A DNA stretch of 23,728 nucleotides, taken from positions 1 to 23,728 of the IMG/VR virus record IMGVR_UViG_3300025128_000337. One strand, given 5' to 3'. Origin of the DNA: a virus. Of this stretch, positions 1,718-20,476 are shown one piece after another; the stretch's first letter is position 1, and each line of letters opens with the position of its first letter. The notes under the pieces were generated by a model. The model did no database searches. It was not told where the DNA came from and worked only from the letters and a program-made list of their open reading frames with translations. A program made the position numbers and the translations under genes.

Positions 1718-3988
1718 CTATCTCGCTCTAGCCTGAGCCACACCTGCGCCACCGAAGGGGCGCAGACCCCACGCCCACACTAACATGGGATCATCAGCGC
1801 CGATACCAAAAGCTCCCCCAGAACTCGGACGCATCTTGTAGCCGTTGGCAGTTACATCTCCAATCGTAATACCGCTGTAACCCTTTTCTTGATTAGTCCA
1901 GTTATAACGAATATCGGTAGGATTACCGCTGCCGACGCCGTCGCTGGAGTACGTTGGAAATGTTGCAAAGAAATCGTTGGAATTGGAAGAATCAATATTG
2001 CGCCATGCGACGAGTGACGCCGATCCACCAAGATTCACATAAGGACCATCACTCGACCCGTTATGGGAATAGCCTGTGAACGCACTGAACCCTTCGATCT
2101 GCTCCCATACAATGACCCGATAGGTTCCAGATGCGAAGCTACTATTTAGTGTTATGTTCGTTCCATCAACCGTGACAAGTTCAGTGGTTGATGGTCTGTC
2201 TTGTTGGTTCCAGCGGATATTGGCCGAGGACATGTTTGGGTGTGATACGTACCAATCGCCCGTGCTATCTGACCTTTTCGCTACAGCCGTTTTTGCACCA
2301 CTCCCCAGACCATGGGCTTGGTTTGTCGCCGAGCCATTCGTGTGGCTAATCTCTGCTGTGTAGCAACCATAAGCCGCACCTACGCGCCAAGACCATGCGG
2401 AGTAGTTCACGCCTGTGTTCAGGGTTAACTCTGAACCTGCGGCGGCGTCTGTGTTGAAGTGCATTGAATTGCCGCTATCATCAGAAAACCGAACATCGTA
2501 ATCTTCATCGTCAGCCTCTTTCTTAAAGACGTCGATGTAGCTGCTCCACCCTGTACGTGCGGTGGCTAGGCTGGCTTCGATAGTATTCCCGCTTTCCAAT
2601 GTGATGAGTGCAAACCCGTCATCAGGGTTTTTCACCGTGGGAGCCGGGAGGTTTGCGGTGCTCCACGCTTTGAAACCTGTGGGTGCGGTGTAACCCCATT
2701 GCGATGGGCGAAACTTGTGAAACAGCGTATCCCCTGATTGAGCCGAGGCAGCACATTTGATAGGAACAGTAAGGCTCATGCTTGTCGGAGCGGCGTTTGC
2801 ACCTGTAGCGGGATTCCCGACACCACTGTTCGTGAACCAAGTGCCATTCAAACCCCACCACATTTTGGCGTTGTCCATATCGAGCGCCATCATGATTGTA
2901 GAGCCGCTCGACGCATCAGTTCCGTACGCTGTTGTGCTTGAATTATTTCGGAGTACGCCAGCACTGCTGTTAGCGTACCAACCCTCTTCAGTTGCAAGGT
3001 TTCCGAAGAAATGAGTAGTGCCGGGATAGACAGTAGAGGCATGGGCTATACCCACGGCGACACTGCCATCATTGAAACCAGAACTGTCGAGGTCTACTTC
3101 CCAATAATATTTTCCACTTGAAACCGCCATTGTGCAAGCGAACGGACTGTTCCCACCACCCGAACTATCTACATCTTGGTTTCCGTTAGCAAACCGTGTG
3201 GAGGTTCCAGAATCCAAAGGATTTGGCAGATTGTAATTTCCAGTGCCGGTTGCTGTCTTTGTCAGTGCTGTGTATGTGGATGGCGCACTGTAGGCCCAAG
3301 AGTCACTTGAAAACCGCATTGTGATGCTTTCGCCTTGATTGTGACCTTGAATCATAGGAAACAATGTCACAGAATTTGAAAGCGTTGCGTCCCAAATAGT
3401 TCCTGGGCCACTGGTGTTACTATTGAAATCATCGCCATTCCACCAATCACCGTTTTTACTCATATATAAATCTTGATTAGCGTAATCCACTGCAAAACCC
3501 CAAATGGTTCCTACAGGGTTTTCATTGGATGTGCCGGGAGTTCCGTCACCATCACCAAACTCCGCTCCAATAGACGTACCGTCATATTTTTCGCCGCTTC
3601 CTGAACTGGGCTGTATGTATGAAAAAGACCCCGACGCGCCTGGACCGCCCGTATTGGCAAGATCGGTGGCAAGTGACCCAACTCCAGCAACCCAAGTGTC
3701 ATCATCATCTTCGCTACATACGACTTCCCAATAAACTTTATCAGTGCCGCTGATTCCAATATTTGTTCTTACGCCGTGCCAAGCACCTGCGTTGTGACTG
3801 CGAAAAAAGAGATTGTTGTTGGCCAGAACCGCAGATGTGTTCGTAAGTGTGCCGGGGTCTAGGCAGGGGTAAAGCGTAACTTGTTCCGATGTGCTGTCCC
3901 TTGGACAATCCACCACCACATTGTTCGCACCCATACTGGTTGCTGACCAATCTTGAAGAAGGTAAACAGGAGAGTAAGACTGCGGCAT
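1718..3988 (-). CDS. Tail fibre-type protein with two SPRY-like domains
   Basis: 756 residues, rich in Ser, Thr, Gly, Asn and aromatic residues, as expected of a beta-sheet fibre or lectin protein. Two SPRY/concanavalin-like modules are visible. The first is about residues 50-240 (KVYWEVVCSEDDDDTW, GFAVDYANQDLYMSKNGDWW, ending MRFSSDSWAYSAP). The second is about 265-435 (KYYWEVDLDSSGF, MALDMDNAKMWWGLNGTW, ending FRPSQWGYTAPTGFKAW). The remainder (about 450-756) is a separate beta-rich domain resembling the C-terminal domains of marine phage fibres, and it ends in ARAR. SPRY folds bind proteins or glycans, so host-surface recognition is likely. The ATG at 3988 follows GAGGTAAAA and lies 2 bases past the upstream fibre gene. 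No enzymatic motif is seen. Confidence 0.85.
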   Translation of the reverse strand: MPQSYSPVYLLQDWSATSMGANNVVVDCPRDSTSEQVTLYPCLDPGTLTNTSAVLANNNLFFRSHNAGAWHGVRTNIGISGTDKVYWEVVCSEDDDDTWVAGVGSLATDLANTGGPGASGSFSYIQPSSGSGEKYDGTSIGAEFGDGDGTPGTSNENPVGTIWGFAVDYANQDLYMSKNGDWWNGDDFNSNTSGPGTIWDATLSNSVTLFPMIQGHNQGESITMRFSSDSWAYSAPSTYTALTKTATGTGNYNLPNPLDSGTSTRFANGNQDVDSSGGGNSPFACTMAVSSGKYYWEVDLDSSGFNDGSVAVGIAHASTVYPGTTHFFGNLATEEGWYANSSAGVLRNNSSTTAYGTDASSGSTIMMALDMDNAKMWWGLNGTWFTNSGVGNPATGANAAPTSMSLTVPIKCAASAQSGDTLFHKFRPSQWGYTAPTGFKAWSTANLPAPTVKNPDDGFALITLESGNTIEASLATARTGWSSYIDVFKKEADDEDYDVRFSDDSGNSMHFNTDAAAGSELTLNTGVNYSAWSWRVGAAYGCYTAEISHTNGSATNQAHGLGSGAKTAVAKRSDSTGDWYVSHPNMSSANIRWNQQDRPSTTELVTVDGTNITLNSSFASGTYRVIVWEQIEGFSAFTGYSHNGSSDGPYVNLGGSASLVAWRNIDSSNSNDFFATFPTYSSDGVGSGNPTDIRYNWTNQEKGYSGITIGDVTANGYKMRPSSGGAFGIGADDPMLVWAWGLRPFGGAGVAQARAR

Positions 3989-3990
3989 TT

Positions 3991-6900
3991 TTACCTCGCC
4001 CTTGCTAAGTTAAATGACTGGTCCGCGAAGGCTAGATAGATGTAAGTACCTGTATTAGCATTTGTAGCTCCCTGAGTTCCGCGCAATTTGAACCCGTTAG
4101 CGGTAAAATCCATGTAGGCAGACCCGCTTTCTGCACCAGTTGTGTTTGGTTGTAATTGGTTGTCTAACGGATTAAAGGTGTCACGCGCAGCATCATTGAT
4201 ATGCCAGCCTTCAGCAGAATCTACTCTCTTTATCATAACCCACGCTGGCCGAAACCCCGATGCCCCGTCATCAACAACTACATATGGATGGCTAGTCGTA
4301 TTTCCTGTATACTTACCAATACCAATTAGTCCCGGTGTTCTTGCAAAGAAGTAAGCGATCATTGCGCGGGTGCCTGTAGCTTCACCGTCTTGTACAGCGA
4401 ATAAGGTTGATGTTACAGGGCTTTCTCCAGATGAAATATTTGCATAACTACCGGTGCCGTCAGCACTATCAGAAGCGTCTGCCCAATAAGCCGTAGATTC
4501 AGCATCAGTGTCATTGATCCAAACTCGTTTGGCGGTGTCAGCAAAATCTTTATGCCAACTAGACCAGTTTGTCGCTTCATCGCGCGCCTTCGTAATAAAA
4601 AATTCTGGCGTTGTTCCGAGGTTGTGCTTGATAGCGTAGTTGGCAGAAGTACGGTGTGTCCAACTTGCTATCGAAAACTTAGCTGTGTCATTTTTACTGC
4701 CAGACGATGCAAGAATATTTGAGTTTTGTGCGCTCTCTGACCACGCCGTTCCAGCCTTTAAACACCATGCAACGTAAGTTTTAGCGTTGTCGTTGCTGTC
4801 GTTTCGGTCGTCACCATTGCCAAGTGTGAAACCACCCTCGATAAATGACGTTACTGCTTTTACATCTTGGAACTCAACCGGACTGTTATCTGGCGTTAGA
4901 ACATTAGCGGCACCTCTAACACTATCAACAAGCACACCCTCACCAGCATCGCTACGGCCCTTTATCCACACAAAGTCAGGTGTCCATGCTGTGCCTGTAC
5001 TATCAAAACACGACCGGACAGTTTTGCTCTGCGCTGTGCCTGTATATAGAGCATTAGCAAAATGTGCCCGTGGATCGGTTACGGTTGGTGCTGCAAGGTC
5101 GGCGGTATTTAATCTTTTGTAACCAGTAGGAACGCTACCGGCGAACGCCGTCTGACCAAAATTAAAAGTAACGCTATGCCCACCAGAATTGTGAGCAGTC
5201 ATTGCTACATACAAATCGTCTGGCAGAGAAGACAGCATCGGGCTGGCACGAGTAGCTGGGTTGCTACTCGCGAGGAATGTTCCGTCATCGCTCACATACA
5301 TCTCGTCGTTGTCTTTGTCGATAGCAAACCCAAGAACAGAGCTATTAGCTATGGAACCTCCGTAACTTGAAGTTGAACCATTAGTAACTTTAGATGACGA
5401 GCTATTAACTGGGTAGAACCCGTAGAACCCCGCTGTAGTAGAACCGTTCACAGCAGATACGAAGTCCCACTTATTCGCTTCATTAACAACGCCAATATAT
5501 TGGTTGGACAAAGTTCCGGGGAGAGTAACCTCAAAATAATACTTTCCACTGTTTGGTATTCTTTGAGTAGCAATAGCCCCATGAAATGCAGCAGCGCCTG
5601 TATTTGTAACGGTCAAATTTCCGTTAGTTAGGGTCATGTTGGAGCTTTTATCAATCGAGTTAAATGTCGTATAATTACCCTCATTATCACCAGAGGTGTT
5701 AGTTGGTGAGTCGGTTACTTGATTAGCCGCCGCTAGGCTATTTGATGCAAATGAATTGTTGTTGCTGAATGTAACTCCAAGAAAACCATTATCGTTTCCT
5801 GAGCCTCCGGAAATCGTAGCTGTTTCTGTATGACTTTCTGCGGCGTCAAATGTATAATCAGCAGAAGTCCAACTACGAGTGCTGGTTATATCAATGTGTT
5901 CAGACCTCTCTGTAGCATCTGACCAAGCATAGGCATCAGCATTGCCCTCGTCATAGATTGCGTAAAATGCTACATCACCGGTTTGGCCTATTGTAGTTAC
6001 GGCTTGAGTCGTCCAACCACTAGCAGTATTACCGTCTGTCGATATGGGATTACCCGCATCAAGCACACGCCACCAACTGATACCAGCCGTTGCCATTGAA
6101 GCACTAAAGGTTACAACAATATCTGCAGAGGTTCCAGAAGCAACAGCAATAGACCAAAACTCTAAAACATTTCCAGCGCCTGAATTTTTTCTAGCTATAA
6201 ATGTTGCAGAACTACCGCCCACTGTTAGAGTGCTTACAGTTCTTGTTCCAGAAGTGGCGCGGCCACCACCAACTGCAATCACAATGGTACGGTTACTTGC
6301 TGCGGCTCCAAGAGACGAAGATGAAAACGTATATGCCGTAGAAGTAGACCCATTTGTTGACGAGCCTAGGTGTGAAACACTTGGGTTTGTCGAAGAGATA
6401 CTGCTCTTACCTAACAAACCTGACGCATCAAATTTTAAATGAAAACCGTTGGTGCCAGCACTTGCCGCTACTGTAGTCGCCGGGTCAATAGGCACCCAAT
6501 TACCATTTGTGTCCCACCCACCAAAATCACTAGCATCACTAACAGCCGTGCCGTCAAGAAGAATTGCATCAGCAAGATAGCCGCCGAAATGCTGATGACT
6601 TAGATTCCCCGGTCTAGCGCCAATAACTTGGTTCTCAGTAAAATTGATATTCGTATCATAATTCTGAGCAGGATAACTAGGTGAATTAAGAGCCGCCTCA
6701 GCACCGTTTACATAGATTTTAACGCGATCGCTAGCTACTGGTTGTGTTGTGTCAACTACCCATAAAACGTGCATCCACGTAGTAGGATCACGGTACAGTG
6801 CATGAGTTTTCACTAACCCGGATGACCCATCATGGAACGAGGCTTCGAGCCAATCATTACCATCATCAGCACTACCAAACATAATGCGGTCTGAGTAGCT

Positions 6901-7833
6901 ACTCGTTCTGTCTCCACCAAAAATGTTGTTTCCGGTAGTGCCGCCTTGACTGCTAACAGCAGATCGTTTTAGCCAACAACTAAATGTGAAGGTTCGCCTG
7001 TTACCAGCCGTAAACGGGTCACGGATTAAATAATCAGCACCACCATCTAGCATCATCGATTTATTTATTTGATAAGAACCCTCAACAGCCGATACCGTTG
7101 TCGGCCGACTGTTTTTTCCTATATTGTCTCCATCGTCAAACTTTAACCAAAATGAATTTTTGCCGCCCCAGTCCGCAATATTATCTGTACTTGCGGGGTC
7201 TTTTGGCACCCACACACCATTGTCATCATTTGCACCAAAAGAGCCAGCATCTGTTGTTGCCACACCGTCAAGGAATATAAACTCTGCTAAATACCCACCA
7301 AAATAATCACCACTGCCACTAAAGCCAATGTAGTGCGGATTTGCTGAGTTTATACCTTGCGCCGACTCATAGCCTTGACCAGAATTAGTCTCTGTGCTAA
7401 ATGACGTTACTCTAGTTCCGTTTATATAAATTCTTTGTCGGTTACCGGCTGTGCCGTTTCCTGTGTCGTTTACTAAAACAACGTGCATCCATGCAGTTGG
7501 ATCACGAAACATAGCGTCAGTGTACAATCGCCATGCAGGGGTGGCGACACCATCATCATAATCTTGCCAGTAAATATCTGAATTTTGAAAATAAAACGCA
7601 CCCGTATTGTTACCATCAGCACGGGCTTCAAAAACAACTCCGGTACTTATGTCCCCACGTTTAATCCAAAGAGAAGCTGTCCACTCTGCCGTATTACCCG
7701 CCTCATCAAATTTTAATTGCAGACGATCACTAGAGCCGTCAAACAGCAACGCGCTTTTTATAACAGACGCGGTTGTAGTGGTACTAGGAAACCCGTCTCC
7801 GAAAAGCCCGATAGAGGCTGGTACAATAAGCAT
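3991..7833 (-). CDS. Giant modular tail fibre: two LamG-like domains, SPRY, C-terminal fibre domain
   Basis: 1280 residues, the largest protein in the window. Domains in order: LamG/concanavalin-like repeat 1 (about 30-235), LamG-like repeat 2 (about 260-472), a Ser/Thr/Gly-rich beta domain (about 485-700), a SPRY-like domain (about 770-915, KYYFEVTLPG, LGFAIDKDNDEMYVSDDGTF), and a long C-terminal domain (about 925-1280) with paired motifs such as PDFVWIKGRSDAGEG and PAWVMIKRVDSAEGW. This last domain resembles one frequent in marine phage fibres (I believe annotated DUF7483). The two LamG units share RDPTAWMHVV/RDPTTWMHVL and FGGYLAEFIFLDG/FGGYLADAILLDG, which points to internal duplication. 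It ends LARAR. The ATG overlaps the upstream stop as TAATG. A receptor- or glycan-binding role is inferred from the folds. Confidence 0.88.
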   Translation of the reverse strand: MLIVPASIGLFGDGFPSTTTTASVIKSALLFDGSSDRLQLKFDEAGNTAEWTASLWIKRGDISTGVVFEARADGNNTGAFYFQNSDIYWQDYDDGVATPAWRLYTDAMFRDPTAWMHVVLVNDTGNGTAGNRQRIYINGTRVTSFSTETNSGQGYESAQGINSANPHYIGFSGSGDYFGGYLAEFIFLDGVATTDAGSFGANDDNGVWVPKDPASTDNIADWGGKNSFWLKFDDGDNIGKNSRPTTVSAVEGSYQINKSMMLDGGADYLIRDPFTAGNRRTFTFSCWLKRSAVSSQGGTTGNNIFGGDRTSSYSDRIMFGSADDGNDWLEASFHDGSSGLVKTHALYRDPTTWMHVLWVVDTTQPVASDRVKIYVNGAEAALNSPSYPAQNYDTNINFTENQVIGARPGNLSHQHFGGYLADAILLDGTAVSDASDFGGWDTNGNWVPIDPATTVAASAGTNGFHLKFDASGLLGKSSISSTNPSVSHLGSSTNGSTSTAYTFSSSSLGAAASNRTIVIAVGGGRATSGTRTVSTLTVGGSSATFIARKNSGAGNVLEFWSIAVASGTSADIVVTFSASMATAGISWWRVLDAGNPISTDGNTASGWTTQAVTTIGQTGDVAFYAIYDEGNADAYAWSDATERSEHIDITSTRSWTSADYTFDAAESHTETATISGGSGNDNGFLGVTFSNNNSFASNSLAAANQVTDSPTNTSGDNEGNYTTFNSIDKSSNMTLTNGNLTVTNTGAAAFHGAIATQRIPNSGKYYFEVTLPGTLSNQYIGVVNEANKWDFVSAVNGSTTAGFYGFYPVNSSSSKVTNGSTSSYGGSIANSSVLGFAIDKDNDEMYVSDDGTFLASSNPATRASPMLSSLPDDLYVAMTAHNSGGHSVTFNFGQTAFAGSVPTGYKRLNTADLAAPTVTDPRAHFANALYTGTAQSKTVRSCFDSTGTAWTPDFVWIKGRSDAGEGVLVDSVRGAANVLTPDNSPVEFQDVKAVTSFIEGGFTLGNGDDRNDSNDNAKTYVAWCLKAGTAWSESAQNSNILASSGSKNDTAKFSIASWTHRTSANYAIKHNLGTTPEFFITKARDEATNWSSWHKDFADTAKRVWINDTDAESTAYWADASDSADGTGSYANISSGESPVTSTLFAVQDGEATGTRAMIAYFFARTPGLIGIGKYTGNTTSHPYVVVDDGASGFRPAWVMIKRVDSAEGWHINDAARDTFNPLDNQLQPNTTGAESGSAYMDFTANGFKLRGTQGATNANTGTYIYLAFADQSFNLARAR

Positions 7834-8984
7834 TAGGCATCTGTCCCTGCGTCGGTCGTTATGTCGATTTTAACAGCATGTAACCGTGCGTCTATAGCCA
7901 TATCATCATTACTGTCACTAACATCACGGAACACTCTAAAAATTACAATGTCCTCAGCCGCTGCACTTCCCGATACTGTAACTGCGCTCGTTGCCGCTGT
8001 GACATAAATATCATCCGTAGTGCCGCCCGTGTCATCTACAACAACAGCCGTTCCAAAAGCAGTGTCTAGAGCATCGTCATTACCAAGGGCCAAGCCTTGT
8101 ATTGCCCAACTGCAACCGAAGTTTGAGCTTGTTGCTGCATGGCTCCAATAAAACTTGGCTGTAATCGTACCTTCATTCCAAGACTTAGGCATAGGAACTT
8201 GAAACTGCACATACTCATCTGTACTAGCATCAAAGTCCCACGTTTTGATCATGACTGCATTACTACTAGTTTCGGCCGAACCAGATGCTGCGCCATTGGT
8301 AGTTGTAGTATACATGCCCGTAGCCGGAATAGGAATCGAGTGCACACCCGCAATAACCACAGGCACTGAACCAGACTTAACAACACCCGTACCTTTAGGG
8401 ATAAGCTCAATATCTATATTACTGTCACCGCCCGTAGCTTCAAGCTGAGGACCATTACTCGTAGCGGCGTTAGATATAGTAAACTCGTTAACCGCTGAGG
8501 CCACCGTGGTAAGGGTTATAAGCTCATTACCATTAGTGTCCAGTAGCTTGGTGCCGTCGTTCGTGATTCCTAGCGTTGCTGCTTCTACGTTTGTGCCGTC
8601 ACAATAAACGTATTGAACACCGCCCTGCGGAATAATAACACCCGTTCCACTGGCCGTTTTAACAGTCAGCGTATACGCACCACCGTTTCCGTTCTGCACT
8701 AAATAGGTTTTAGTTCTGGCTGGAACAATCACATCACGGTTGCCCGTCAGTGTGCCAGTGGTTTTAATTATGTGAAGGTGTGACTCAGCTGTGGTTGAAG
8801 TGTTTTCTACATATTGAGTATCATCAAGAGTGTAGTTGCTGCCCGTAACCGTAATCGTGGTCATTCCAGCAATGGCCTCTTCAATACGAGATAACGCCGT
8901 ATTGGTCTTAGTTCCCCACGTATTAGCGTTTTCGCCTGTGGCTTGTTTCTCAAATTTAATGAGATCAGATGCGGATGAGGCCAT
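7833..8984 (-). CDS. Tail fibre-type protein, probable virion-proximal fibre
   Basis: 383 residues. The N-terminal part (about 1-135: LIKFEKQATGENANTWGTKT, SRIEEAIAGMTTITVTGSN, YLVQNGNGGAYTLTVKT, GGVQYVYCDGTNV) matches by eye a module often found at the start of fibre proteins in marine phages, probably the part that attaches to the tail. A middle repeat-like strand region (about 140-210, DGTKLLDTNGNEL, DSNIDIELIPKGTG) is typical of trimeric fibre shafts. The C-terminal half (about 215-383, MIKTWDFDASTDEYVQFQV, SWNEGTITAKFYWSHAA) looks like a jelly-roll beta domain. A good ribosome site (AAGGAG, 6 bases upstream of ATG) marks the start. The end overlaps the next fibre gene as TAATG, suggesting fixed stoichiometry between the two. 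Confidence 0.82.
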   Translation of the reverse strand: MASSASDLIKFEKQATGENANTWGTKTNTALSRIEEAIAGMTTITVTGSNYTLDDTQYVENTSTTAESHLHIIKTTGTLTGNRDVIVPARTKTYLVQNGNGGAYTLTVKTASGTGVIIPQGGVQYVYCDGTNVEAATLGITNDGTKLLDTNGNELITLTTVASAVNEFTISNAATSNGPQLEATGGDSNIDIELIPKGTGVVKSGSVPVVIAGVHSIPIPATGMYTTTTNGAASGSAETSSNAVMIKTWDFDASTDEYVQFQVPMPKSWNEGTITAKFYWSHAATSSNFGCSWAIQGLALGNDDALDTAFGTAVVVDDTGGTTDDIYVTAATSAVTVSGSAAAEDIVIFRVFRDVSDSNDDMAIDARLHAVKIDITTDAGTDA

Positions 8985-8994
8985 GTTAAGCTCC

Positions 8995-9423
8995 TTACGC
9001 TAAACGAATTAAAGCGTTACTTGCGTCTGCGGCCGGAAACGTGATTTGAAATGTCCCGTTTGTAACAGTAAAGTCCCCGCCAAAAGCTAAAACACAAATC
9101 GCCTTGTTGCTATTACTAGAATTGTAGATCAAAGCTCCGTTTGCCGTAAAACTTGCACTTGTCCACGTTGGGTCGGCAAAATCTATAGTTACAGTTGTTC
9201 CGTCTGTAGCAACGGCGGCACTGCCTAATGTTGCCCCTCCTGCCGAGTAAGCAGAACCAGAAGCGTTGCTAATTTCATTAGAACTTGAGTACGCCGTGGT
9301 AGCCGCACCTAAACTCGCACTGCTTGTATACAGCGCAATTTTGATTGTGTCTGACGTTATATCATGTTGTTCATCCAAAATTTCTGATTTGAATGAAGTA
9401 CATAATGCTTGGGAAATTGCCAT
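8995..9423 (-). CDS. Small structural (tail/neck) protein
   Basis: 142 residues. The N-terminus (MAISQALCTSFKSEILDEQH) precedes a beta-rich, Ser/Thr/Ala-rich sequence (IKIALYTSSASLGAATTAY, YSAGGATLGSAAVATDGTTV, FTANGALIYNSSNSNKAIC, TFQITFPAADASNALIRLA). This matches the general pattern of a small conserved protein found between adaptor and fibre genes in many uncultured marine phages. The exact virion location is not established; neck, tail or fibre-base positions all fit. A clear ribosome site (AGGAG, 9 bases upstream of the ATG) supports the start. The next gene follows after 10 bases with its own strong site. Functional name low confidence, coding call high. Confidence 0.8.
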   Translation of the reverse strand: MAISQALCTSFKSEILDEQHDITSDTIKIALYTSSASLGAATTAYSSSNEISNASGSAYSAGGATLGSAAVATDGTTVTIDFADPTWTSASFTANGALIYNSSNSNKAICVLAFGGDFTVTNGTFQITFPAADASNALIRLA

Positions 9424-9435
9424 TAGATTATACTC

Positions 9436-10059
9436 CTATTGCAGTTCACTATAGCTTGCCGTTATTTCCGCATTGAGCTTTTGGACTTCTGCCTCAAAAT
9501 CAGCACGCAGTTCTTGACGCATTTGCGCCTCGCGGTTAAGAAAAACAGAAGACTCGTACATCGCTCCCTTAATTAAAACATCCGGATGGTTCAAGCTAAC
9601 ATATGTTGTCGTGTTACTGCTACTCAACCGTGTCGGCATCCTAGTATACTTTAACGTATATGAAAAATTAGTATTCGGCGTAGGTGCCAACAAGAGCGTT
9701 GTGCCGTTGGTTGCTGCCGTGTCTAGCGCGTAATATTTTGGCTGGCCCGTGGTTGTAGAATTAAGCCAATAATCTTGTAGGTACTCGTCTTTGCGTTCTT
9801 CTAAAAACACCGTACTGTTACTGACAGTTAGATACAGATAGCGGATACCACGCACATCTGTCGCTGTGGTTCTAACTGTATTGGTGCCACTGGTGAGTGT
9901 TCCTGTTTCAGCTGTCCTGTGGTCGAGTATTTGTGGAACTGATCTGAAAATACGGTCTTCCGACCGTGCCAAAATTTCAGGAATCGCATTTGAAAACTCA
10001 GTCGAATCGTCTTCATTGCGTTGTTGCAGAATACTTACGATTTCAGCGTATGTGCTCAT
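9436..10059 (-). CDS. Head-tail adaptor protein (SU10-adaptor-like)
   Basis: 207 residues. The N-terminal pattern (MSTYAEIVSILQQRNEDDST, NAIPEILARSEDRIFRSVPQ) and the central strands (DVRGIRYLYLTVSNST, EERKDEYLQDYW, YYALDTAATNGTTLLLAPTP, FSYTLKYTRMPTRL) followed by C-terminal helices (LIKGAMYESSVFLNREAQMR, FEAEVQKLNAEIT) fit the adaptor/connector proteins of SU10-like phages. These form a ring beneath the portal. That family is recognised by eye, not by search. The position after capsid genes and before fibres agrees. The start at ATG 10059 is only weakly supported by a ribosome site (GGGGG about 15 bases upstream), so coupling with the upstream gene, which ends 6 bases before, is likely. Confidence 0.78.
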   Translation of the reverse strand: MSTYAEIVSILQQRNEDDSTEFSNAIPEILARSEDRIFRSVPQILDHRTAETGTLTSGTNTVRTTATDVRGIRYLYLTVSNSTVFLEERKDEYLQDYWLNSTTTGQPKYYALDTAATNGTTLLLAPTPNTNFSYTLKYTRMPTRLSSSNTTTYVSLNHPDVLIKGAMYESSVFLNREAQMRQELRADFEAEVQKLNAEITASYSELQ

Positions 10060-10065
10060 AACAAA

Positions 10066-10791
10066 TTAGCCATGCCCCCACGTATCGTCGCCCCAACCGT
10101 CATTACCCCAACCCAGAGTTCTAATTGATTCATTACCAACTGCCGTCGTTATTGCAAAGCCTGTTTCTATTGCTGCTGCTTGCGGCGTTTCATTTCCAAG
10201 GGCTAATGTAGTAGAAACTCCACTAACAGACAAGATAGCATCTGCGCGGAGTGTTTCGTTACCGACAGCGGTAGTTACAGCTATACCGTCTGGCTCAGCA
10301 TAAGTTTGTATGGTTTTTCCGTGGTCACCGATTGCCGTTGTAACCGCAATACCGTCTGGCGAAGCAATAGCGCCAGCAAAGACTGTTTCATTACCAACTG
10401 CCGTTGTGGTAGCCACACCCGACGGGAACGCCGTTGCAGCGGCACTATTGGAGCTAGCCATGCCCGTCGTTGTAGAAACACCCGTGCCCGTAATAACGCT
10501 ATCCGCACGCCCAATTAAAGCACCACCATCCGGCCCCATACGCCCAAACGTGCTCACGCCGCTGGTTATAACAACACGGGCATCTTCACGTTTATGGGTG
10601 CTTGGGCGCGGAAAACGTAGAGCCTGTGCGTCAGTAACAACAACTGGATCTAAGGCAGGGTGTTTAGGTTCCCAGCAATCTTGGCAAGTCCTTAAACCGT
10701 TCCACTCTTCTCTAAGCGTGAGATACGGGTACGACAGGCCGCACCTGTCACAAATTGCTTTTGCATGAGCGCCGGACGCATAGCGGGGCAT
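10066..10791 (-). CDS. Zinc-ribbon protein with tandem 22-residue beta repeats and Gly/Trp-rich tail
   Basis: 241 residues. Residues 1-45 form a CxxC...CxxC zinc-ribbon-like head (Cys14, Cys17, Cys36, Cys39; AICDRCGLSYPYLTLREEW, RTCQDCWEPKHP). From about residue 75 the chain is built from degenerate repeats of about 22 residues centred on GIAVTTAVGNET (variants GVSTTTGM, GVATTTAVGNET, GIAVTTAIGDHG, GVSTTLALGNET, FAITTAVGNES). The chain ends in GWGNDGWGDDTWGHG. The head resembles a conserved marine phage protein placed beside adaptor genes, and the repeats resemble short beta repeats in phage fibre and neck proteins. It is flanked on both sides by adaptor-type genes, so a neck or tail-base structural role is inferred. 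The start is ATG 10791; no strong ribosome site is seen. Confidence 0.75.
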   Translation of the reverse strand: MPRYASGAHAKAICDRCGLSYPYLTLREEWNGLRTCQDCWEPKHPALDPVVVTDAQALRFPRPSTHKREDARVVITSGVSTFGRMGPDGGALIGRADSVITGTGVSTTTGMASSNSAAATAFPSGVATTTAVGNETVFAGAIASPDGIAVTTAIGDHGKTIQTYAEPDGIAVTTAVGNETLRADAILSVSGVSTTLALGNETPQAAAIETGFAITTAVGNESIRTLGWGNDGWGDDTWGHG

Positions 10792-10802
10792 ATCATTTCA
10801 CA

Positions 10803-11465
10803 CTACGTTGGTATGATTCTAAGAGCAGCTTTTTCACCCTCTTCGTCTGAAGCAAATTTAAAAGAGCTCTCGGCTTGAGTAAGTAGGATTTGCATTCTTT
10901 GCGGAGAAACATTAGGTAGCTTTATCGCAAGTTTAGAAGCAAGCCCTGCACACATGGCTTCGGTCCACCGATACGGAACATCTGTATCTTGGTACGCTGC
11001 CGTAATGTCTTCGATCTGTGACAAAGCCCAATACACAAGTGTGTCTGTGCTGTTTTCTGGCACAGGCCATAGGTATATAGAAGGTGTGTATTGCCTATCA
11101 AAAAAGTATTGAGTCGGCATACCTTCGGTTGTTTTATTAGACTGACCATTATAATCAGTCATAGACAAACGTGTCATCGCAGTGTCATTACCGCTACGCC
11201 TAAGTGCGGCGGTAAGTATGTCTACGGTACCAGCGGGTAAAGTGTACGAACGTAGAGACTGTGTTAGCGTTAATGTGGTTTCAGTAGTGCACCAATAATT
11301 GATACCACGCACAGCCCACTCACTGAACATAAGGTTCAAACTGCGCCGTGCGGAAACAGCAACTTTTCTATCTATAAGTGTGGGGTCTAACCCACACCGC
11401 TCACAAGCCTCAGTTACTATTTCGTCAACCTCTGGCCTGAATGTAACTGACCCAGAAGTTGCCAT
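10803..11465 (-). CDS. Head-tail connector/adaptor protein (gp4/gp11-like)
   Basis: 220 residues. The N-terminal helix region (DEIVTEACERCGLDPTLIDR, RRSLNLMFSEWAVRGINYW), the strands (TTETTLTLTQSLRSYTLPAG, TVDILTAALRR) and the C-terminal helices (YRWTEAMCAGLASKLAIKLP, RMQILLTQAESSFKFA) match the layout of phage connector proteins that dock under the portal. The pattern of a repeated R..LN.....WA.RG.N.W motif followed by Y.LP..TVDI is common in short-tailed phages. The ATG at 11465 is 1 base after the end of the preceding gene and no clear ribosome site is present, so translational coupling is expected. Whether it or the 207-residue protein contacts the portal directly cannot be told from sequence alone. 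Confidence 0.75.
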   Translation of the reverse strand: MATSGSVTFRPEVDEIVTEACERCGLDPTLIDRKVAVSARRSLNLMFSEWAVRGINYWCTTETTLTLTQSLRSYTLPAGTVDILTAALRRSGNDTAMTRLSMTDYNGQSNKTTEGMPTQYFFDRQYTPSIYLWPVPENSTDTLVYWALSQIEDITAAYQDTDVPYRWTEAMCAGLASKLAIKLPNVSPQRMQILLTQAESSFKFASDEEGEKAALRIIPT

Positions 11466-14691: not shown

Positions 14692-15594
14692 TCAAGACTC
14701 CTGTCTACTCTTTTGGATTTCTTTAGCGTAAGCCTTTAATTGGGCTTCCGATGTAATCCCGAGTTCGCGAGCCATGCTAAGTTCATCTTTCGTTAACTGT
14801 ACCCGACCGTCTTTTGCGATTTTACCAGAACTCGCTCTACCGCCTGTCGGCGCTGTTGCGGGTTTTGATTTTTTTACATCGCCCTTGTTGTATAACTCAG
14901 GAAATTTTTCTTGTAAACGGTTATCAAGCTCTGTGTAGTAGGCAGGGCTGTTCTTATCGAAACCTTCCTGCTCTAATTGAACGTCAACAACCCGCGCATA
15001 AGCTGACTCAGCTTGGTTTTCCGGTGTGTTAAACCACTGGTTCCGCTCCCACCAAGTATAAGCCGCTTGTGGTGCATCTTGCGCCGGTTGCTGTTGCTGT
15101 TGCTGTTGCTGCTGTTGCGCTGGCTGTTGCCTATTAGTCAACTGAGCAACTTTTGCCTCAGCACGCATATCGGCAAGTTGCTCAGTTAAAGCGATTTGCT
15201 GAGCCGTGTCGCCTTCTTCTGCAGCGGCGGTTAAGTCAGCGCGTACTTGATTATACCGATCTTGAAAACTTTGCACCGCTTGCTCTTGGCCTTTGTTTTC
15301 AAGCTGTGCCATTCTTTCCGTGAGTGCTTGTAACTCGGCATCTTTAGCTTGCTCACGCCGTTCTGCTTCACGCCGTTCACGTGTTAGCTGGTCGATGCGT
15401 TTCTGCACACGGTCAGACATGTCATTATCTGGTTCAGATGCTGCCGCTGGTTCGGGCGCAGGAACTGAGTCCGGTGCAGACTCATCAATAATTTCAACGA
15501 GGTCTGAAAACTCAGCATTGTCTTCTTGCGGTGCCAAGTCTTTTTCGAGAGCCTGTTCGTCTACAGGTTCCCACTCTTCTTTCTGCTCTGCCAT
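14692..15594 (-). CDS. Scaffold-like head assembly protein with polyglutamine run
   Basis: 300 residues. It is acidic and proline/alanine-rich at the N-terminus (about 1-60). A long charged coiled coil follows (about 60-155, DRVQKRIDQLTRERREAERR, DAELQALTERMAQLENKGQE). Ten consecutive glutamines sit at residues 160-169, then a conserved-looking segment (YTWWERNQWFNTPENQAES, YYTELDNRLQEKFPELYN). The tail is basic and Lys-rich (KDELSMARELGITSEAQLKA). The helical, charged build and the position between the co-chaperonin and the capsid fit phage scaffolding proteins, which fill the procapsid and leave on maturation. A clear ribosome site (AAAGGAAAAATT) precedes the ATG. An internal core protein is the alternative. 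Confidence 0.78.
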   Translation of the reverse strand: MAEQKEEWEPVDEQALEKDLAPQEDNAEFSDLVEIIDESAPDSVPAPEPAAASEPDNDMSDRVQKRIDQLTRERREAERREQAKDAELQALTERMAQLENKGQEQAVQSFQDRYNQVRADLTAAAEEGDTAQQIALTEQLADMRAEAKVAQLTNRQQPAQQQQQQQQQQPAQDAPQAAYTWWERNQWFNTPENQAESAYARVVDVQLEQEGFDKNSPAYYTELDNRLQEKFPELYNKGDVKKSKPATAPTGGRASSGKIAKDGRVQLTKDELSMARELGITSEAQLKAYAKEIQKSRQES

Positions 15595-15633: not shown

Positions 15634-15978
15634 TTAAGCGTATACCTTTATTACAGTTGGGTCTTCGACAACAGCGATAATTTCATCGTCGTTAATAAAG
15701 CGATACTCTTTGTCGTCAATTTCCATGCGAAACTGCGTAAATTTAGGCACGATAACCCACTGGCCGGGAGTAGCCCACGGACCACCAGCCCAAAACTTGC
15801 CCGTCTCGCGGTCTTTGAATGCAAGCGGACCAATGCTAACCACCTTGGCACAGATGCTCAAATAGTTCTCGGCTTCTATTGCTTGGTCTGGCAGCAAGAT
15901 GCCGCCATCAGTTTTGTCTTTAGGTTTAGGCTTTTCGATCAGCACCTTAAATCCTCGGGGAATAGGAAGGTTACTCAT
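15634..15978 (-). CDS. GroES-like co-chaperonin
   Basis: 114 residues. The sequence fits the GroES/Cpn10 fold: IPRGFKVLIEKPKPKDKTDG leads into a mobile-loop-like GGILLP (residues 25-30, hydrophobic Ile-Leu-Leu tripeptide at 27-29). AKVVSIGPLAFKDRETGKFW and GQWVIVPKFTQFRMEIDDKE follow, then the C-terminal strand DEIIAVVEDPTVIKVYA. Such a co-chaperonin would cap the host GroEL (or a phage chaperonin) and help fold phage proteins, most plausibly the capsid protein, as T4 gp31 does. The mobile loop is the GroEL contact site. The start ATG overlaps the upstream stop as ATGA. It lies directly upstream of the scaffold-like gene, which supports a head-assembly role. No GroEL homologue is in the window. 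Confidence 0.9.
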   Translation of the reverse strand: MSNLPIPRGFKVLIEKPKPKDKTDGGILLPDQAIEAENYLSICAKVVSIGPLAFKDRETGKFWAGGPWATPGQWVIVPKFTQFRMEIDDKEYRFINDDEIIAVVEDPTVIKVYA

Positions 15979-17366: not shown

Positions 17367-17979
17367 ACTTCAATGCCTCCTTAACGGCAGCAAGGATTTG
17401 TTCAACCGTATACTCTTGTGAGTTGAAGATGTTAGCGATATTTTCATTTTGTTTGGGCGATGTAGGCATCTTAGCCAATTCCAATCTCAATTGCCGCTCC
17501 TGTTCCGCGATCTTTTTAGGCATCCGCTCGCCTATACCCTGACCCTTGGGTCTGAGCAATGTGGGCGTGGTAGTGTTGATTTGATCGGCTAGCTTGAGTA
17601 TCAAATTTTTTAGCCCACCCGCTTCTGCCTCATCAACCGTAGCTGGCGTCATTGCAACTGCCGCCGCCGTCGGTGGCGCTGCTTTCTTTATTGCTTTGCC
17701 GACTACGGGCACAGCGTCACTAATCAGTGAACCACCTTTAATAAAAGCATCAATGGGCAAAAGTCTCAAAGCGCCACCAGCAATTTTTGTTTGCAAGCCT
17801 CCTGCCGGACCTAATGCCGCAAGCCCTATATTTGTAGCTGAAGGATAACCCTGTTTACGTACATCATCAACCATAGCGGGGACGTTAAACACATCACCAA
17901 GTCCACGGCGTAAATATTCCGCAAGACTGCCCACTTGCCGCCGTGTGGCCGGAGGTATGAGCTTTTCTAAATTAGCCAT
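17356..17979 (-). CDS. Unrecognised protein with central hydrophobic Ala/Gly-rich segment
   Basis: 207 residues. An N-terminal helical stretch (MANLEKLIPPATRRQVGSLA, EYLRRGLGDVFNVPAMVDDV) leads to a hydrophobic Ala/Gly/Pro-rich centre (about 50-120, NIGLAALGPAGGLQTKIAGG, KKAAPPTAAAVAMTPATVDE). The rest is charged and helical (KKIAEQERQLRLELAKMPTS, EQILAAVKEALKFGD). The centre is hydrophobic enough to insert in or span a membrane but lacks the charge pattern of a clear transmembrane helix. It starts 8 bases inside the portal gene end (ATG at 17979). Internal virion or ejection protein is a possibility. No family is recognised. Confidence 0.7.
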   Translation of the reverse strand: MANLEKLIPPATRRQVGSLAEYLRRGLGDVFNVPAMVDDVRKQGYPSATNIGLAALGPAGGLQTKIAGGALRLLPIDAFIKGGSLISDAVPVVGKAIKKAAPPTAAAVAMTPATVDEAEAGGLKNLILKLADQINTTTPTLLRPKGQGIGERMPKKIAEQERQLRLELAKMPTSPKQNENIANIFNSQEYTVEQILAAVKEALKFGD

Positions 17980-20476
17980 CTGTGCGCTCAGCTTTAATTT
18001 GTGCTATGGCCACCTGTGATGCCGCCTTTTCTTGCTCTACCTCAATCATCGCTTCAGCTTTTTCTTTAGCTAACTGTATATCAGCCTCTGTCTTGAGCAC
18101 AAGCTGTTGAATGCGTGCATCCATTTCTTGCTCTTCAAGGTCTTGCTGGTTCTCGTTACGTATTCTGTTTTCATCAATACGGGCCTGAGCACGGATACGT
18201 TCAATTTCCATGTCCATTTGTGACTGCGCCATTTTGATTTGCATATCCATCTGAGCTTTTTGCATCTTAGCTTCTATGTCAGCTTGAGCCTTGGCTTGCG
18301 TAGCCTGAGCCTCAATCTGCATTGCCATCTGCGCTTGCTCCATAGGATTAGGCTGGTTTTGTTGCTCACCCGCTGGTGGTGGCGGTGGCCCAATCATTGG
18401 TTGTGGATTCTGCGTTACAATCGTAGCCGCTGCCTGACTAATTTCTGCATCCAACTCAGGTGGAATTGCTGGTGTATCATCACCTTGTTCACCTAACGGT
18501 GGCATGGGCGCGGCCATCTGCGCTTGAATCATTGCACGATAGAACAACGCCGTATGTTCAGCACGGTGGCTAATGTACGGCATAAAGAACTGTTCCTGTT
18601 GCTCAGGTGGCAACCTACGGAAAAAGTCATCCAGTACAGTAATATGTGCCATGTGGTCTTGGTCAGGAAATGCCTTAACTGGTCTGCCCAAAGCAATCAA
18701 TGAGTTTTCCGTAACCGCATCGCGCCGAATACCTTCTTTAGGATCTGTAAGCACTTCTTCATAGTTGGGTATACGCATCGCCTCGTACATTCTACGCAAA
18801 GCGTTATACTGGTTATGATACTGCGGAAACTCTTTAGAGAGCTGCATCATCGCTTGAGCTTGAGCGATGCGTTGCGTAGAGCTGAATGTGTTGGGATCTG
18901 ATACAGGTATTACATCAATACGGTCATCAAAATCCTTACGCAGAACAACCGTAAGGTCACGTATCCGGTAGGGGTAACGCTCCGGTAAATAAATACCGTT
19001 GAGCTTGGCAATGAGCTTAAACTCTTTACGCTGGCTGTTGTGCAGTCGCTTGTGCACGGCAGAAAACACACGGCTGTTTTCTTCCAACAACGCCATCGTA
19101 GTTCCTACGGGCGTGTTCTGGTTTGCATCGGCTAAATTAGTTTCTACCGTGTTAGCGAACTGCTTGCCCGTTTGCACCACAAACTGAAGCAGTTGCATCA
19201 TGGTTTGGCTTGGCTCTTTGAACGGCAGTGGCATGATCGCTTTTTTAACGTCATCAACCGCTGCGTCAATATCTGTAAACTCACCGGGGCCAATCTCCAT
19301 GTCGCCGCCTTTAACACGACCACGAAGTTTGAATCCACCCTGCATGTTGCTAAATGCCGCTGCGTCAAGCAGAGAGCGCAGTGCTCCCGTTGCGGCTTTA
19401 CCCAACCCGCCGATTACATGATACAGCCCATACCCATACGGCCCGAGTCCCGGCAAAAATTTGTACGAAATGAACCAAACGTTCTTGCGTTCTTTTTCAT
19501 CTTCTTCGTCCCAGTTACGGCGAACCGCAACAACCTTTTCAGAGTCACGATGAATTGTAACCACTATTGGCTTATCAGGGTCATCTTCGTTTTTATTGAG
19601 TATGTCAGAATACGTGTGTATTTCTAGCAATTCAATCGGCGCATCATATGTGCCGTACACAGCCTCAATGCCATCAATGTCTTGAATCGTCGTTTCTTGC
19701 AATGAATCAGAACTGGCTGGTGCAGGAAGGTAATAGTCATTAGCTACATACTGGTCATACTCATGGCGCGGAACACGCAAAACATGCGTATACCGGCACG
19801 CAGACTCAAGGTCAGTAGCACCGGCATCAATTACAAAATCTTCAGCTTGAACAAACCGGCTGCAAATGCGCCGTAGGTTGACATCAAACCAACACTTCTT
19901 GTATGTCTGACCCACCAGCGGCAAATGAAAAAGCATTTGGTCAAGATCAGGAAAATACTCCGTCATCTCTTCCGTAAGTTGATAGTTCATATAGTCAGTA
20001 ACACGCTTGGCTTGTTCCTGCGTGGCTACGCTGGCCTCACCTACAATAGTCGCGCCTACTGGACCCTTGGGCGGGAACAGTTCATTGATCGCCTTGGCTT
20101 GAAACTGCGTAGCGGCCTCCGCGATCATCGGGTGCACTACATTGGTCAGGCGCTTTTGCTCACGGTTGACGGAGGTTTCATCTATTTGGCGCTCATCCGG
20201 TTTGAGTGTTTCAAGCCCGTTCTGGTATACCCGCAACCAATCATCACGCGCCGAGGCATCGTCCTCATAGTCACTAATCAACGACGAAGCAAGTTTACTC
20301 AGGTCTTGCTCATCTAATGTTTCAACAAGGTTAGAGTCCCACTCACGTAATTCTGGTTCTTCTATAGTGTCAAGGGCGGGAGTACCTATTAAAAAACTAC
20401 CGTCGGGCTGTTCTTCTATAGGCACGTTATTCAACGTGTCTTCAATCAATTGAAACGGTGCCGCATACTCAGCCAT
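17972..20476 (-). CDS. Portal protein (SU10-like)
   Basis: 834 residues, long for a portal. Family features: SLISDYEDDASARDDWLRVY at the start of the core, EQAKRVTDYMNYQLTEEMTE, PDLDQMLFHLPLVGQTYKKC, EDFVIDAGATDLESACRYTH, FISYKFLPGLGPYGYGLYHV, GALRSLLDAAAFSNMQGGFK and ETNLADANQNTPVGTTMALL. These are seen in the large portals of SU10-like phages. The core is followed by a proline-rich hinge (about 690-710, MIGPPPPPAGEQQNQPNP) and a very long Gln/Lys/Glu coiled coil (about 708-834) that could form a barrel or internal extension. The portal is a dodecameric ring through which terminase packages DNA. It overlaps the terminase end by 8 bases. Confidence 0.9.
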   Translation of the reverse strand: MAEYAAPFQLIEDTLNNVPIEEQPDGSFLIGTPALDTIEEPELREWDSNLVETLDEQDLSKLASSLISDYEDDASARDDWLRVYQNGLETLKPDERQIDETSVNREQKRLTNVVHPMIAEAATQFQAKAINELFPPKGPVGATIVGEASVATQEQAKRVTDYMNYQLTEEMTEYFPDLDQMLFHLPLVGQTYKKCWFDVNLRRICSRFVQAEDFVIDAGATDLESACRYTHVLRVPRHEYDQYVANDYYLPAPASSDSLQETTIQDIDGIEAVYGTYDAPIELLEIHTYSDILNKNEDDPDKPIVVTIHRDSEKVVAVRRNWDEEDEKERKNVWFISYKFLPGLGPYGYGLYHVIGGLGKAATGALRSLLDAAAFSNMQGGFKLRGRVKGGDMEIGPGEFTDIDAAVDDVKKAIMPLPFKEPSQTMMQLLQFVVQTGKQFANTVETNLADANQNTPVGTTMALLEENSRVFSAVHKRLHNSQRKEFKLIAKLNGIYLPERYPYRIRDLTVVLRKDFDDRIDVIPVSDPNTFSSTQRIAQAQAMMQLSKEFPQYHNQYNALRRMYEAMRIPNYEEVLTDPKEGIRRDAVTENSLIALGRPVKAFPDQDHMAHITVLDDFFRRLPPEQQEQFFMPYISHRAEHTALFYRAMIQAQMAAPMPPLGEQGDDTPAIPPELDAEISQAAATIVTQNPQPMIGPPPPPAGEQQNQPNPMEQAQMAMQIEAQATQAKAQADIEAKMQKAQMDMQIKMAQSQMDMEIERIRAQARIDENRIRNENQQDLEEQEMDARIQQLVLKTEADIQLAKEKAEAMIEVEQEKAASQVAIAQIKAERTDG

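Follow-up and report, generated by a model that had tools for sequence, protein, structure and literature searches.

A three-tryptophan tail on a repeat-built phage neck protein as a candidate dock for trimeric tail fibres

The window analysed here is a 23,728-nucleotide stretch of viral DNA (positions 1 to 23,728 of the IMG/VR record IMGVR_UViG_3300025128_000337), and an open reading frame on its minus strand, 10066..10791, begins at an ATG and encodes a 241-aa neck protein composed of an N-terminal head, a series of 22-residue repeats and a tail with three tryptophans. By analogy with the nozzle of phage SU10, this protein is on balance probably a fibre dock, in which a neck-anchored stalk of beta repeats carries the tryptophan tail (W3). 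The tail is the most informative part of the protein. The original prediction for 10066-10791 had described a four-cysteine ribbon, repeats and a GW-rich tail joined in one protein, and this observation is confirmed by the cysteines C14, C17, C36, and C39, six repeat units, and the tryptophans W228, W233, and W238. Its interpretation as a whole, a repeat-built neck spike or beta helix whose length changes by unequal recombination, is partly supported.

The gene lies, as had been proposed, between two adaptor-type genes, an upstream gene of 220 aa (10803..11465, minus strand; PF24175, E 3e-13) and a downstream gene of 207 aa (9436..10059, minus strand; E 5e-18), which both pass the 27-bit cut-off of the Pfam SU10_adaptor family (51.0 and 66.7 bits). 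On the coding strand, the order runs from adaptor to the 241-aa gene, the second adaptor, a conserved 142-aa gene of the same block assigned to phrog_644 (8995..9423, minus strand; E 7e-25), which has a similar gene at the same place in relatives, and a 383-aa fibre-like gene (7833..8984, minus strand) that matches phrog_31104 (9e-20) and the tail fiber family phrog_12796 (3e-12). The first 60 residues of this last product (8805-8984, minus strand) form an ATGENxxTWGTKTNT N-terminal domain that is proposed, from gene linkage, as the partner of W3. Pfam has no match to the 241-aa protein, NCBIfam returned nothing above its cut-offs, and no significant PDB match was obtained for the whole protein, its GW tail, or the head profile, nor for the upstream adaptor, the fibre, or the fibre profile. 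Searched whole against viral contigs, the protein matched one identical record alone, and its relatives were reached via the adaptor gene and other family members.

Elsewhere in the window, no nozzle gene was identified within the 23.7 kb, and an 834-aa protein at the portal position (17972-20476, minus strand) has no Pfam match. Two large DUF7483 proteins are encoded at 1718-3988 and 3991-7833 (minus strand), the first also with a SPRY domain. A 114-aa protein at 15634-15978 (minus strand) has, by eye, the look of a GroES-type co-chaperonin, and phage CRP-901 has an annotated GroES in its corresponding block. A glutamine-rich short tandem repeat occupies 15087-15130 within the ORF at 14692-15594.

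The head domain (aa 1-66; 10594..10791, minus strand) has a sole match, over residues 1-65, to phrog_28581 (E 7e-10), a family of no assigned function that shares this domain with the window protein; of the 165 positions in the family profile, 1-66 alone match. The domain is widespread in phages, as a search with a relative as query found at least 592 viral loci encoding a relative, from which the best 80, mostly matched through the head, were kept, and the head gene adjoins an adaptor-like gene in the seven phage records examined. In the window the head bears two CxxC knuckles, C14/C17 and C36/C39. Both cysteine pairs occur in 5 of 73 distinct heads and neither in 65, which makes zinc optional. 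Proteins consisting of the head only, 69-91 aa in length (L020, Pra-JY27, and ct2G2228), indicate that it has a role without repeats. An AlphaFold2 model of the window protein from 34 sequences is confident for about residues 11-40 alone, with nearly all of the repeats and tail at pLDDT below 50; a single compact domain, the outcome that would have spoken against a repeat-built protein, was looked for and the prediction is not of that kind. Foldseek matched the head over about 28-38 residues to zinc fingers of the RING, LIM, and FMDH-E types, all of them weak and none at E <= 0.001.

Behind the head, six degenerate repeats of 20-22 residues each fill aa 95-221 (10129..10509, minus strand), with units starting at aa 95, 116, 138, 160, 182, and 202 and centred on G104, G125, G147, G169, G191, and G211, at spacings of 21, 22, 22, 22, and 20. 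At lag 22 the protein has a BLOSUM self-similarity of 0.88, whereas shuffled sequences average -0.48 (sd 0.18), and the observed value was equalled by none of 5000 shuffles at that lag and by none of 1000 at any lag from 5 to 49. This periodicity, together with the 12-mer ataccgtctggc at 10283 and again at 10349, 66 bases apart, bears out the predicted array of about six repeats with a 66-base period, and with the flanking SU10_adaptor genes it upholds a repeat construction at a neck position. At the DNA level, TRF at score 30 found no array in the gene, and a DNA repeat search recovered one 43-nt pair at 77% identity (10258/10324) and one family of 24-mers. Identity between copies of the 60-nt units is 37-60%, and the array is therefore old.

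The fold of the repeats is better predicted in L155, a standalone repeat relative, for which AlphaFold2 predicts beta strands, roughly two to each repeat, between disordered ends, with a pTM of 0.61 and pLDDT values mostly of 66-80. Many beta-helix proteins are found among the structural matches of this model, all of them weak and none at E <= 0.001, and a beta rod or solenoid is a plausible model for the repeats. A tblastn search with a standalone repeat protein against phages gave no match, though isolates encode such proteins, and low-complexity filtering may explain this result.

Over 99 distinct closed heads, the number of repeats ranges from 0 to about 8 by a profile count that is approximate, as it finds five units in the window where the pattern gives six. 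By the same count the number is steady within close groups, including the nearest relatives of the window, in which 5-6 were found. The standalone pair L218 and L229 differs by exactly 198 nt, or three repeats, between 800-nt flanks with identities of 99.8% and 100%, though this gap may come from misassembly. Within the window array, the last repeat is conserved by position, with 19 of 20 residues shared with L011 and 17 of 20 with L015, and unit 3 matches its own unit 4 at 11 of 20 residues versus at best 10 and 8 of 20 to units of L011 and L015; this likeness is compatible, if weakly, with some turnover within the array. The proposal that length changes by unequal recombination thus gains from the three-repeat difference and from the spread across heads, but the steady number in the nearest kin of the window counts against it there. 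A different unit varies in standalone W3 proteins, which carry three to five C-terminal aromatic units of 11 residues each; L195 and L207, 99% identical over their aligned residues, differ by 22 aa that correspond to two extra units of this kind. Since these units are not fixed at three, the rule of three described below is confined to the five-spaced tryptophan triplets.

The tail itself, GWGNDGWGDDTWGHG (10078..10110, minus strand), places W228, W233, and W238 exactly five residues apart in a W-x4-W-x4-W pattern. Tryptophan clusters were counted in 153 proteins encoded directly upstream of the same fibre type and in 155 head proteins, a cluster being any with at least one five-residue step, so that three tryptophans were not required. 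Exactly three were found in 99 of 105 distinct clusters, with 78 of 83 for the upstream proteins and 21 of 22 for the head proteins. Among the six exceptions, three have a fourth tryptophan at +6 (L291, L303, and L311) and three have two tryptophans (L228 and L145, both with Phe in the missing register, and L297). The number stays at three despite broken spacing (5+10 in L019, 7+5 in L225-type proteins) and through aromatic substitutions that give W-Y-W, Y-Y-W, and F-W-W. Where one protein has several clusters, each of them retains three, as in HTVC027P gp68 with three clusters and, by eye, L310 with four; DSL-LC04 has four clusters, of which one is W-Y-W, and a further C-terminal set. When Phe and Tyr are allowed, a fourth aromatic residue lies one step away in 39 distinct segments (37 upstream of the fibre, 2 in heads), which counts against the rule. 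In the L155 model, W3 and the C-terminal tail are disordered beside the beta core, as would be expected of a docking peptide. A search of the open-licence PMC literature found no paper on the W3 motif.

The same modules are placed differently between lineages. The lineage of the window encodes head, repeats, and W3 as one fused protein; in other lineages, W3 is missing from the head and is encoded near the start of a separate gene immediately preceding the fibre, where repeats of the same type follow it. Among loci with W3 on the head and at least 2200 nt downstream, the fibre was present in 24 of 24 and a separate W3 gene in none, while loci without W3 on the head had a separate W3 gene within 2200 nt in 33 of 55, many of these contigs ending before the fibre. 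Loci fetched by the fibre N-terminus (ATGENxGTWG) carried W3 in the immediately upstream gene in 46 of 47 cases, compared with 0 of 71 among controls retrieved with a different collar protein; short upstream sequence had removed 33 of 80 fibre loci and 9 of 80 control loci. Identity to the queries was 92-100% in one set and 66-100% in the other, so the loci within each set are closely related and not independent. By eye, the single exception (L301) and four fibre-bearing control loci keep the five-residue register and fill it with Phe or Ile.

In eight complete phage records, a DNA pattern for W3 gave 12 matches in five, compared with 1 for the reversed control. The fibre domain is present in six of the eight, and SU10 and ct2G2228 lack both the domain and the pattern. 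A whole-genome search of HTVC023P found both W3 and the fibre, 023Pt_psg01 has the fibre and no intact W3, and Pra-JY27 has the fibre with W3 absent from the neighbouring gene. The fibre also occurs without a tryptophan triplet on the head or the neighbouring gene in L020, L005, L301, L367, L372, L387, and L392. In L301:6996, L372, L387, L392, and L395:1159, the proteins upstream of the same fibre type begin with a five-spaced F/L-I/F-I/F series such as MAFGISAFSEAPFAS, which may represent a non-tryptophan version of the triplet.

W3 is found in nozzle proteins as well. The homologues of the SU10 nozzle gp17 belong with it to phrog_3287 (SU10, 8e-116; CRP-901, 8e-68; L224, 1e-66), with 9nwi_Y as a nozzle relative in the PDB (E 4e-12). 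These homologues have W3, and in an alignment W3 is carried by five of six aligned phage nozzles, including those of DSL-LC04, Pra-JY27, HTVC027P, and HTVC023P. The triplet of the 023Pt_psg01 nozzle (L395:2386) is apparently split by an insertion of about 90 residues between the second and third aromatic positions. A further domain, which we take from its H...YYC..H..M motif, seen by eye, to be cupredoxin-like, occurs at L022:4165-5334, L023, L025, L027, and L032, at L003:2889-3986, and at L248:3311-4651. Its placements are an insertion among the repeats, the beginning of an adaptor gene in 023Pt_psg01, and the beginning of a W3 protein, and it could be a mobile module among neck proteins.

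In the mechanism proposed here, the head, a putative four-cysteine zinc ribbon in the window and cysteine-free in most relatives, would bind the portal or adaptor ring, as we infer from gene position. The 22-residue repeats would form an extended beta stalk whose length changes by whole repeats, and the tail would be one flexible strand bearing three tryptophans. In the manner of the SU10 nozzle loop, the tail would dock a homotrimeric tail fibre by its base, which would offer three equivalent pockets, one for each tryptophan. The fibre encoded nearby at 7833-8984, with its ATGENxGTWG N-terminus, is the likely partner. In a broader and more tentative form, which we regard as possible rather than favoured, W-x4-W-x4-W could be a portable docking tag, one strand for three pockets, that is used across abundant ocean phages and is exchanged among proteins of the neck, the nozzle, and stand-alone stalks. 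Arrays of one to four triplets within one repeat protein would then serve as racks fixing the number of trimeric fibres at each attachment point, and the length of the stalk would be adjusted as whole 22-residue repeats are gained or lost. If so, a short, countable motif would mark the docks, and fibre number and attachment points could be read from sequence. The motif also offers a simple mutational test in cultured isolates such as CRP-901 and HTVC027P.

Several of the same observations could be read otherwise. The beta strands predicted for the repeat in L155, the beta-helix proteins among its weak fold matches, and the neck position of the gene would suit a spike or whisker, a beta-helical appendage whose GW tail trimerizes it by tryptophan stacking and binds nothing else. 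This reading is unlikely, since a simple trimer tip would not explain W3 inside the nozzle protein or up to four W3 motifs in one chain, and the tight linkage with one fibre type also stands against it. Exposed aromatic residues and repeat arrays are common in adhesins, and the varying array length would likewise agree with a host-surface adhesin in which the tryptophan triplets and repeats bind cell-surface glycans or the membrane. The binding residues of such a protein should diversify, yet the number and register of the tryptophans are nearly invariant across phages of Pelagibacter, Roseobacter, and lake hosts, and we give this possibility a low probability. Similarly improbable is an assembly or measuring factor, whose head plugs the adaptor ring while the repeats and tail guide the addition of the fibre or nozzle and form no lasting dock; it is favoured by the head-only versions but leaves both the exact count of three tryptophans and the fibre linkage unexplained. 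A fibre dock anchored in the neck is the reading preferred here.

Among cultured phages, CRP-901 gp53 (WED25072.1, a hypothetical protein) shares its gene position, head, repeats, and GW tail with the window protein, 94% of which it covers at 35% identity, but its head lacks cysteines and it has about seven repeats by profile in 314 aa; the available text of PMC10149686 makes no mention of it. In the T7-like cyanophage P-SCSP1u, nozzle and adaptor both provide a dock and each fibre trimer sits between the two, according to the available text of PMC10575957, an arrangement that fits those relatives of the window with W3 on both the nozzle and a neck-gene product. The two differ in that the P-SCSP1u adaptor is itself the dock, with no added repeat protein, and the word tryptophan does not appear in that text.

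The original prediction had known of no characterized member, which holds for the repeat and the head, for which none was found, but not for the three-tryptophan tail, which has a functional precedent in SU10. There, a loop of the nozzle gp17 presents W839, W847, and W857, verified here in the sequence, with pseudo-threefold symmetry and docks the trimeric short fibre, as described in the available part of PMC9509320. A single chain thus provides three tryptophans for a trimeric fibre, and the phrog_3287 nozzles of the window's relatives also bear three-tryptophan clusters. The spacing is 8+10 in the SU10 nozzle loop, compared with 5+5 in the window, where the tryptophans lie in the C-terminal tail of a separate neck protein. 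Furthermore, W3 of the marine nozzles aligns to another loop than the SU10 dock loop, and no homology was detected between the fibre N-terminus and SU10 gp16 (hhalign probability 0.2%). For these two reasons, W3 is best described by analogy, as a motif that probably works like the SU10 dock rather than one that is the SU10 dock.
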